DNA from: a virus
Length of the DNA: 27,990 nt
Direction: 5' to 3' (one strand)
IMG/VR virus record: IMGVR_UViG_3300011115_000735
Span: 1-27,990 of that record
How positions within the stretch are numbered: the stretch's first letter is position 1; every line of letters starts with the position of its first letter. Below the pieces are notes generated by a model. The model saw nothing but the letters and a program-made list of their open reading frames with translations, was not told the DNA's origin and ran no database searches. The translations under genes were made by a program, and so were the position numbers. This document shows positions 21,716-22,582 of this stretch, piece after piece.

Positions 21716-22582
21716 ATGAAACATGGTAGTTTATTTAGCGGAATAGGTGGATTTGATTTAGCAGCAGAATGGATGGGATGGGAAAACATCTTTCATTGTG
21801 AATGGAATCCATTTGGTCAAAAAGTATTAAAACATCACTTTCCTAATTCAATCAGTTATAATGATATTACTAAAACAGACTTTACTATTCACCGAAGAAC
21901 AATCGATATTCTTACAGGCGGATTCCCTTGTCAACCCTACTCAACTGCGGGAAAGCGAAAAGGTAAAAAAGATGAGCGCCATTTGTGGCCAGAAATGTTG
22001 CGAGCAATTAGAGAAATTCAGCCACGTTTCGTTGTGGGTGAAAACGTTCTCGGCCTTGTTAATTGGGGGGGGGGATTGGTATTCCACGAAGTGCAAACTG
22101 ACTTGGAAACTGCGGGGTACGAAGTATGGCCGTATGTACTGCCATCTTGTGGCGTTAACGCACCGCACAGAAGAGATAGGGTTTGGTTTGTTGCCTACCG
22201 TAGCAATGGATTCAACGGGAGCAACGGCAAATATGAAGTCAACGCAAGTGAAAGAAGGATCAATGCACTCGGTGACATTGAGCAGATGGGCGAATATGCT
22301 ACCGACACCAAGAACATCGGACGAAAGAATGCACTGGAGAACGGAAAATTGGAAGGGGGACGATTTAGGTTCGGAGATAAACCACCTACTTGGGACTCGT
22401 TCCCATCTCAATCCCCTATTTGTGGGGGAGATGATGGGCTTCCCAAAGAACTGGACAACATTACCTTTTCAAAATGGCGAAATGAATCAATAAAAGCATA
22501 TGGTAATGCTATTGTTCCACAAGTGGCTTATCAAATATTCAAAGCAATAGAGGAATATGGAAAACAGAGAAATGGTTTATGA
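21716..22582 (+). CDS. C5 cytosine DNA methyltransferase
   Basis: This is a 288-aa protein with the motif order of C5 methyltransferases: motif I FSGIGGFDLA (7-16, binding S-adenosylmethionine), motif IV GGFPCQPYS (68-76, catalytic C72), motif VI GENVLGL (108-114), motif VIII RRDRVWF (152-158), and motif IX/X-like FSKWRNESIKAYGNAIVPQVA (251-271). It is likely to methylate phage DNA to avoid host restriction. A run of ten G codes for W-G-G-G at about residues 117-120, between motifs VI and VIII. From about 21900 to 22450 G+C rises to nearly half, against about a third elsewhere. A second frame is open through the same DNA. It is the first gene of the plus-strand operon. Confidence 0.92.
   Translation: MKHGSLFSGIGGFDLAAEWMGWENIFHCEWNPFGQKVLKHHFPNSISYNDITKTDFTIHRRTIDILTGGFPCQPYSTAGKRKGKKDERHLWPEMLRAIREIQPRFVVGENVLGLVNWGGGLVFHEVQTDLETAGYEVWPYVLPSCGVNAPHRRDRVWFVAYRSNGFNGSNGKYEVNASERRINALGDIEQMGEYATDTKNIGRKNALENGKLEGGRFRFGDKPPTWDSFPSQSPICGGDDGLPKELDNITFSKWRNESIKAYGNAIVPQVAYQIFKAIEEYGKQRNGL
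21861..22493 (+). CDS. Overlapping second reading frame inside the methyltransferase gene
   Basis: This 210-codon frame is shifted by +1 base from the methyltransferase and ends just where the methyltransferase's last motif begins. It does not read as noise: residues 41-110 (CGQKCCEQLEKF; WVKTFSALLIGGGDWYSTKC; KLTWKLRGTKYGRMYCHL), LLPTVAMDSTGA, MLPTPRTSD and LNPLFVGEMMGFPKNWT are the kind of segments I recall from phage C5 methylases and companion proteins. In single-frame phage methylases a similar LPTP...LNP--VE-MMGFP--WT stretch precedes the last motif. It could be made from its own start, or fused to the methyltransferase N-terminus if the G tract loses one G. The high local G+C also keeps a minus-strand frame open, so chance openness is possible. 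Confidence 0.5.
   Translation: MILLKQTLLFTEEQSIFLQADSLVNPTQLRESEKVKKMSAICGQKCCEQLEKFSHVSLWVKTFSALLIGGGDWYSTKCKLTWKLRGTKYGRMYCHLVALTHRTEEIGFGLLPTVAMDSTGATANMKSTQVKEGSMHSVTLSRWANMLPTPRTSDERMHWRTENWKGDDLGSEINHLLGTRSHLNPLFVGEMMGFPKNWTTLPFQNGEMNQ
22065..22074 (+). repeat. Homopolymer G10 tract in the methyltransferase gene
   Basis: Ten consecutive G, by far the longest G run noticed in this AT-rich window. It is read as TGG GGG GGG GGA in the methyltransferase frame. Loss of one G would join the upstream methyltransferase frame to the second frame; other changes would break motif VIII and beyond. Such tracts are typical of phase-variable genes. Confidence 0.95.

Follow-up and report, generated by a model that had tools for sequence, protein, structure and literature searches.

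The C5 cytosine methyltransferase locus of the window, which is the whole analysed stretch of 27,990 bases from an IMG/VR virus record, very probably encodes a heterodimeric enzyme whose small subunit (beta) is nested in the gene for the large subunit (alpha). The proposed mechanism has the following steps: (i) alpha, read from frame 1, would carry the SAM-binding and catalytic motifs I-VIII together with the C-terminal motif X, (ii) beta, read from frame 2, would be translated from its own internal start, the ATG at 21861, on the mRNA of alpha, (iii) beta would give motif IX and probably a part of the target-recognition region, and (iv) the two polypeptides would assemble into one enzyme similar to M.EcoHK31I. 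Such an enzyme may methylate the phage DNA and thereby protect it from host restriction. We infer four parts of this scheme, namely the binding of alpha to beta, the requirement of both for enzyme activity, the sequence that is recognised, and the protection of the phage.

The window includes portal, terminase, primase/helicase, and exonuclease genes, and a NinG-like gene is located directly downstream of the methyltransferase gene, which has a G+C content of 43%. The features of frame 1 are as follows.

21716..22582, plus strand: alpha, large subunit of a C5 cytosine methyltransferase (288 aa), predicted by PF00145, phrog_363 and TIGR00675
21734..21760, plus strand: alpha motif I, FSGIGGFDL, frame 1 (sequence and alignment with canonical enzymes)
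21917..21943, plus strand: alpha motif IV, GGFPCQPYS, with the catalytic Cys72, frame 1 (sequence, alignment)
22040..22048, plus strand: alpha motif VI, ENV, frame 1 (sequence, alignment)
22166..22195, plus strand: alpha motif VIII, HRRDRVWFVA, frame 1 (sequence; the aligned core ends here)
22496..22528, plus strand: alpha motif X, AYGNAIVPQVA, frame 1 (directly 3' of the beta stop)

Judged by its profile matches, frame 1 is a C5 cytosine methyltransferase. It is matched by phrog_363 (E 3.5e-73), by TIGR00675, and by PF00145 (E 2.8e-46), the last covering only positions 1-209 of the 324 in the profile. Comparison of the frame-1 profile with canonical C5 methyltransferases (E 2.9e-41) aligns motifs I-VIII only, and no motif IX is recognisable in frame 1 by this comparison, which stops at motif VIII. 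The GNA of motif X (columns 263-265) is invariant in 75 frame-1 homologues. An earlier sequence-only reading had credited frame 1 with all expected motifs; this holds for the core, motifs I-VIII, and for motif X, and it overlooked that frame 1 has no recognisable motif IX and that frame 2 appears to supply it.

From 21828 onward the +1 frame contains no stop codon up to the one at 22491-22493, and its ATG at 21861 begins a reading frame of 210 codons. The 210-codon frame through the methyltransferase gene that the same reading had described was thus recovered at 21861-22493, together with the three peptides it had listed, GDWYSTKCKLTWKLRG, MLPTPRTSD and LNPLFVGEMMGFPKNWT, and its position relative to the last frame-1 motif, since motif X (AYGNAIVPQ) comes immediately after the frame-2 stop. 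The features of this frame are listed below.

21861..22493, plus strand: beta, nested +1-frame protein, 210 aa (stop depletion, synonymous constraint, start-codon tests, phrog_1008)
21987..22160, plus strand: beta residues 43-100, overlapping alpha codons 91-149 (AlphaFold2 model ma6e4cbb8e4e4)
22065..22074, plus strand: run of ten G inside the overlap, glycine in both frames (sequence)
22296..22322, plus strand: repeat-like motif of beta, MLPTPRTSD, frame 2 (column conservation)
22407..22457, plus strand: motif-IX-like segment of beta, LNPLFVGEMMGFPKNWT, frame 2 (profile alignment; actinophage counterparts)

Frame 2 matches phrog_1008, a family named 'DNA methyltransferase' (E 4.4e-17); it has no significant match in Pfam or NCBIfam and no sequence match in the PDB. 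Sub-threshold matches to thymidine kinase and to a hantavirus were rejected as noise. The AlphaFold2 model of beta has a low mean pLDDT of 61.8 and is confident only at residues 43-100, where block means reach 78-89. A fold search of the PDB and of a viral library with this model returned nothing significant, the mean pLDDT being too low to lean on; the best match in the viral library was a phage protein named cytosine methyltransferase (E 0.0055). In the LPTP columns, entropy is 0.4-0.9 in frame 2 and 1.7-2.2 in frame 1. The number of LPTPxAxD motifs (22180-22400; also loci L007, L058 and L349) varies among homologues while both frames stay open; this variation is an in-register gain and loss of modules in two frames at once.

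To analyze selection on frame 2, we used two sets of homologues. Set 1 comprises 80 IMG/VR loci found via frame-2 peptides and 80 loci found via frame-1 peptides, with some contigs shared, and was reduced to 75 non-redundant genes for the shuffle tests. Set 2 is a divergent branch reached with frame 2 of phage C72C1. The loci are ranked by similarity to the query, and the counts given here are not prevalences among all phage C5 methyltransferases. The pairwise identity of frame 1 across the two sets has a median of 0.42 and a minimum of 0.28. The null model was within-gene shuffling of synonymous codons, which keeps the frame-1 protein and its codon usage.

Stop codons are strongly depleted in the +1 frame relative to this null. 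The window gene has none against 6.1 expected, and 0 of 200 shuffles reached this value; the 75 set-1 genes have 10 stops against 489 expected, and set 2 has 4 against 456. The +2 frame of the set-1 genes is near expectation (1265 stops, 1362 expected). The same test applied to the +1 frame of 17 canonical single-frame C5 methyltransferases gave 287 stops with 285 expected, and the shuffle test is therefore calibrated. Dual coding of this region, as proposed by the sequence-only reading, is thus borne out in both branches, and the build-up of frame-2 stops in homologues that would have spoken against it is not seen: a frame-2 homologue is present at +1 in 160 of 160 set-1 loci, 80 of which were collected with frame-1 peptides alone.

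An open minus-strand frame had been raised as a caution against dual coding. It is not comparable: over both sets, the three antisense frames contain 706, 842 and 1733 stops (1016, 875 and 1442 expected), against 26 in the +1 frame (923 expected) in the same comparison. The antisense ORF was rejected as a coding candidate; of the three antisense frames, a single one is depleted of stops, and that modestly. The mild depletion in the first antisense frame (706 against 1016) is probably induced by the two constraints acting on the sense strand.

The distribution of synonymous constraint along the gene follows the boundaries of frame 2. In set 1, the excess over the null in the identity of codons for the same residue is about 0.05-0.16 outside the overlap; this excess climbs from frame-1 codon ~55, reaches 0.3-0.55 from codon ~103 onward, dips to 0.1-0.2 at motif IV and near motif VIII, and drops back after codon 258. 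Codons ~55 and 258 are the ends of frame 2, so the rise and fall expected of an overlapping gene coincide with the overlap itself. Stops in frame 2 show the same limits, with 0 against 70 expected at codons 60-85 and 1 against 155 at codons 111-165, and 188 against 83 after codon 258. Within the variable region (codons 166-235), mean entropy is lower in frame 2 (2.06) than in frame 1 (2.44). The W, S, L and W of the frame-2 motif WYSTxCxLTW, as well as the frame-2 segment LNPxFVxEMMGFPxxWT, are nearly invariant where frame 1 changes. Because frame 2 is conserved at positions where frame 1 varies, a shadow frame is excluded, and we regard frame 2 as a second, selected protein.

The start of frame 2 was analyzed in both branches. 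In set 1, an ATG follows the last +1 stop in 75 of 75 genes, at codons 44-64, whereas the shuffle null gives a mean of 18.2 and at most 28 in 100 shuffles. In set 2, a Shine-Dalgarno site with a start codon is located past the last +1 stop in 66 of 83 genes (13.7 expected, at most 20), usually as AAGGAG, about seven bases and ATG. In most of these Shine-Dalgarno-bearing genes, the +1 frame opens just one codon before the start, so that read-in from upstream is ruled out for set 2. No Shine-Dalgarno signal was found in the window's branch (2 of 75 set-1 genes, 1.1 expected), and initiation there rests on the conservation of the ATG. Shine-Dalgarno sites are expected to be absent in Bacteroidota. 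The start-codon evidence as a whole favours internal initiation of frame 2. The sequence-only reading had left the choice between a companion protein and an alternative C-terminus of the methylase; the evidence favours the former, in the form of a companion subunit that is started internally, and disfavours the latter.

Evidence that frame 2 bears the missing motif IX comes from two directions. The direct profile match of the frame-2 C-terminus to canonical motif IX (rlTPrEaaRLQGFPDdw) is weak, with E 0.0017 and a probability of 15.6% over 20 columns (HHalign). The main link, stronger than the direct match, runs through the enzymes of actinophages. The methyltransferase of Mycobacterium phage Rita contains in one frame and in this order motifs I-VIII, LLPTPxAxD repeats, AFSEWMMGWPAGWVT, and motif X; the frame-2 profile matches it with E 1.4e-13, and the matched part shares its frame with motifs I-VIII and X. 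In Mycobacterium phage Twister, gp79 contains motifs I-VIII, and gp78, in the +1 frame, contains a frame-2-like part with the motif-IX-like segment and motif X; the frame-2 profile matches gp78 with E 9.7e-11. In the structural model of a relative of the Rita fused enzyme, residues 1-347 fit M.HhaI with Z 20.9 and rmsd 3.5 (228 aligned).

The fused enzymes also provide a comparison for the stop counts. In 15 fused actinophage enzymes, the +1 frame beyond codon 165 has 69 stops with 75 expected, and the constraint is gone. Selection on the +1 frame is therefore seen in genes whose frame 1 lacks motif IX and is absent from those that have this motif in frame.

Two further observations concern these actinophage loci. 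In the fused enzymes (L339, L344-L359), the +1 frame at codons 60-165 is mildly depleted of stops (18, with 31 expected) and still resembles the N-terminal half of beta, with up to 67 bits, even though the C-terminal half is fused into frame 1; this stretch may be a remnant, or a domain that is still used. The methylases of Twister-type mycobacteriophages (L342 1489-2482; L361-L387) are tandem splits in which alpha ends shortly past motif VIII and an overlapping +1 ORF bears the motif-IX-like segment and motif X.

Three other explanations of frame 2 were weighed. We give almost no credence to a shadow of the conserved gene, held open by the composition of frame 1. An ORF of more than 100 codons can indeed occur at +1 over a canonical gene and be annotated as a gene, as in Streptococcus phage P0092. 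Against this explanation, the set-1 genes have 10 stops where about 489 are expected with the frame-1 protein and codon usage kept, the conservation of frame 2 persists at sites where that of frame 1 is lost, and the constraint stops with the frame; the canonical genes in the same test (287 and 285) show no such depletion, which also answers the worry about a shadow frame voiced by the sequence-only reading. In P0092 itself, gp45 (L338 1652-2071) bears the annotation DNA methyltransferase; this ORF lies at +1 over a canonical single-frame enzyme and has no match to the frame-2 profile, and its annotation is probably spurious. It is also very improbable that ribosomal or transcriptional frameshifting leads from frame 1 into frame 2 and yields an alternative C-terminus. 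The ten-G run inside the overlap could slip, and frame 2 bears a C-terminal motif of the enzyme; however, in set 2 the +1 frame opens one codon ahead of a conserved Shine-Dalgarno start with no feed from upstream, the ATG past the last +1 stop is kept in all 75 set-1 genes, long G runs occur in just 6 of these 75, and a frameshift product would miss motif X. A frameshift product was thus rejected for the Shine-Dalgarno branch and is disfavoured elsewhere. At the ten-G site itself, runs of 10-12 G are shared by five further non-redundant homologues at the same codon, and the rest have at most 6, with none at 7-9; a one-base slip could possibly join parts of alpha to beta, and the run could be a contingency tract.

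The third explanation, which we consider improbable though less so than frameshifting, takes frame 2 for a separate companion, such as a regulator, chaperone or anti-restriction factor, that is overprinted on a complete methyltransferase and acts outside the enzyme. In favour of this, the N-terminal half of beta, which overlaps alpha motifs IV-VIII, is the confidently modelled part and has no known homologue. The methyltransferase itself speaks otherwise, as motif IX is not recognisable in frame 1, and in the actinophage enzymes the C-terminal half of frame 2 is in frame with motifs I-VIII and X. Past motif VIII, the +1 constraint is lost exactly in the fused enzymes. A separate companion is also at odds with the constant association of frame 2 with the methyltransferase in the loci searched: it is found at +1 in 160 of 160 set-1 loci, 86 of 86 set-2 loci and 79 of 80 bacterial loci, and no stand-alone frame-2 gene was found in the 326 fetched loci carrying frame 2. 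These observations agree better with beta as a subunit of the enzyme.

The proposed heterodimer was compared with several known systems. According to PMC3404938 (citing Lee, Kam and Shaw 1995), M.EcoHK31I (YGGCCR) has motifs I-VIII and X in the large subunit and motif IX in the smaller polypeptide, and its predicted target-recognition domain is in the large subunit. Compared by description, the large subunit in the window likewise has motifs I-VIII and X and lacks IX, and the smaller polypeptide has a motif-IX-like segment, for which the direct match is weak (E 0.0017) and the actinophage fusions add to it. The small-subunit gene of M.EcoHK31I is reportedly located inside the large-subunit gene in another frame, and the window and its homologues show such nesting. 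The two systems differ in that M.EcoHK31I is a cellular restriction-modification enzyme, whereas the gene in the window belongs to a phage, and next to it no restriction enzyme was recognised. They may also differ in target recognition, assigned to the large subunit of M.EcoHK31I, whereas here frame 2 is the better conserved at codons 166-235 and the fused enzymes are frame-2-like there. M.AquI (CYCGRG) is a two-polypeptide C5 methyltransferase that is split after motif VIII (PMC3404938). The alignment of the frame-1 core in the window also ends at motif VIII; however, the small subunit of M.AquI contains motifs IX and X, whereas motif X of the window is in frame 1, past the frame-2 stop. The Twister-type mycobacteriophages (gp79/gp78) look like the tandem plan of M.AquI.

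Single-frame enzymes (the M.HhaI class, phi3T-like and Rita type) share motifs I-VIII and X with the window, and the Rita type also has frame-2-like LPTP repeats and the motif-IX-like segment. Unlike the window gene, they encode one polypeptide with motif IX in frame, and their +1 frame is unconstrained, either throughout (canonical enzymes) or beyond motif VIII (fused enzymes). Methylases of ShiLan-type actinophages contain a hidden, out-of-frame HNH gene in an inserted homing element (PMC11855218). An out-of-frame ORF within a phage methylase gene is common to both cases; in contrast to ShiLan, the overlap in the window spans core motifs IV-VIII, is fixed across the family, and gave no HNH domain match among 98 frame-2 members. 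The same nested gene as in the window is present in Paenibacillus larvae phages Lily (gp63) and Redbud (gp51), where it is annotated as 'g62/g50 internal gene' with no function assigned.

The nested family spans phages and prophages of Bacteroidota, Firmicutes, Pseudomonadota and cyanobacteria. Its cultured carriers include Lc-Nu, Lacticaseibacillus R9.1, many Paenibacillus larvae phages, Bacteroides phages BKO1-TP3 and BS-TP4, and Synechococcus S-H1. In bacterial genomes, 79 of the 80 fetched loci are nested; most belong to Bacteroidota, and the others are labelled Bacillota, Burkholderiaceae, Alphaproteobacteria and Parcubacteria, these host labels being soft because several are metagenome bins. 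The sole non-nested bacterial locus (L307, Mucilaginibacter sp. FT3.2) has both the alpha and the beta frame broken, as if the two had decayed together. Among sampled genomes, 9 of 274 and 5 of 299 had a frame-2 match, a frequency that fits a mostly prophage gene.

The nested two-polypeptide plan already has a precedent in one or two cellular enzymes. Within the literature searched, the apparent novelty is that in phages this plan makes up a large and old family, to which fused and tandem forms are related; nothing in that literature was found to describe the nested gene as a family that spans phages. Long same-strand overlapping genes in prokaryotes and phages are rarely proven, and the proof here is statistical and calibrated. 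A wider view, which we put forward tentatively and regard as somewhat less probable than its alternatives, is that this is an ancient phage-wide gene with about 200 codons that serve twice, for two obligate subunits of one enzyme, kept nested in phages of several bacterial phyla since the subunits co-evolve, and that beta residues ~43-100 form a fold of their own with an added role. This role of the N-terminal domain could be, for example, holding alpha or setting target specificity.

The family has nested, tandem and fused forms side by side, and it therefore lends itself to tracing, and testing, how an overprinted gene arises and is lost. Most of the records examined omit the nested gene or label it hypothetical; thus, cloning of 'the methyltransferase' alone may yield just one half of the enzyme, without activity. 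A likely function can be given to phrog_1008 and to the 'internal genes' annotated in Paenibacillus phages.
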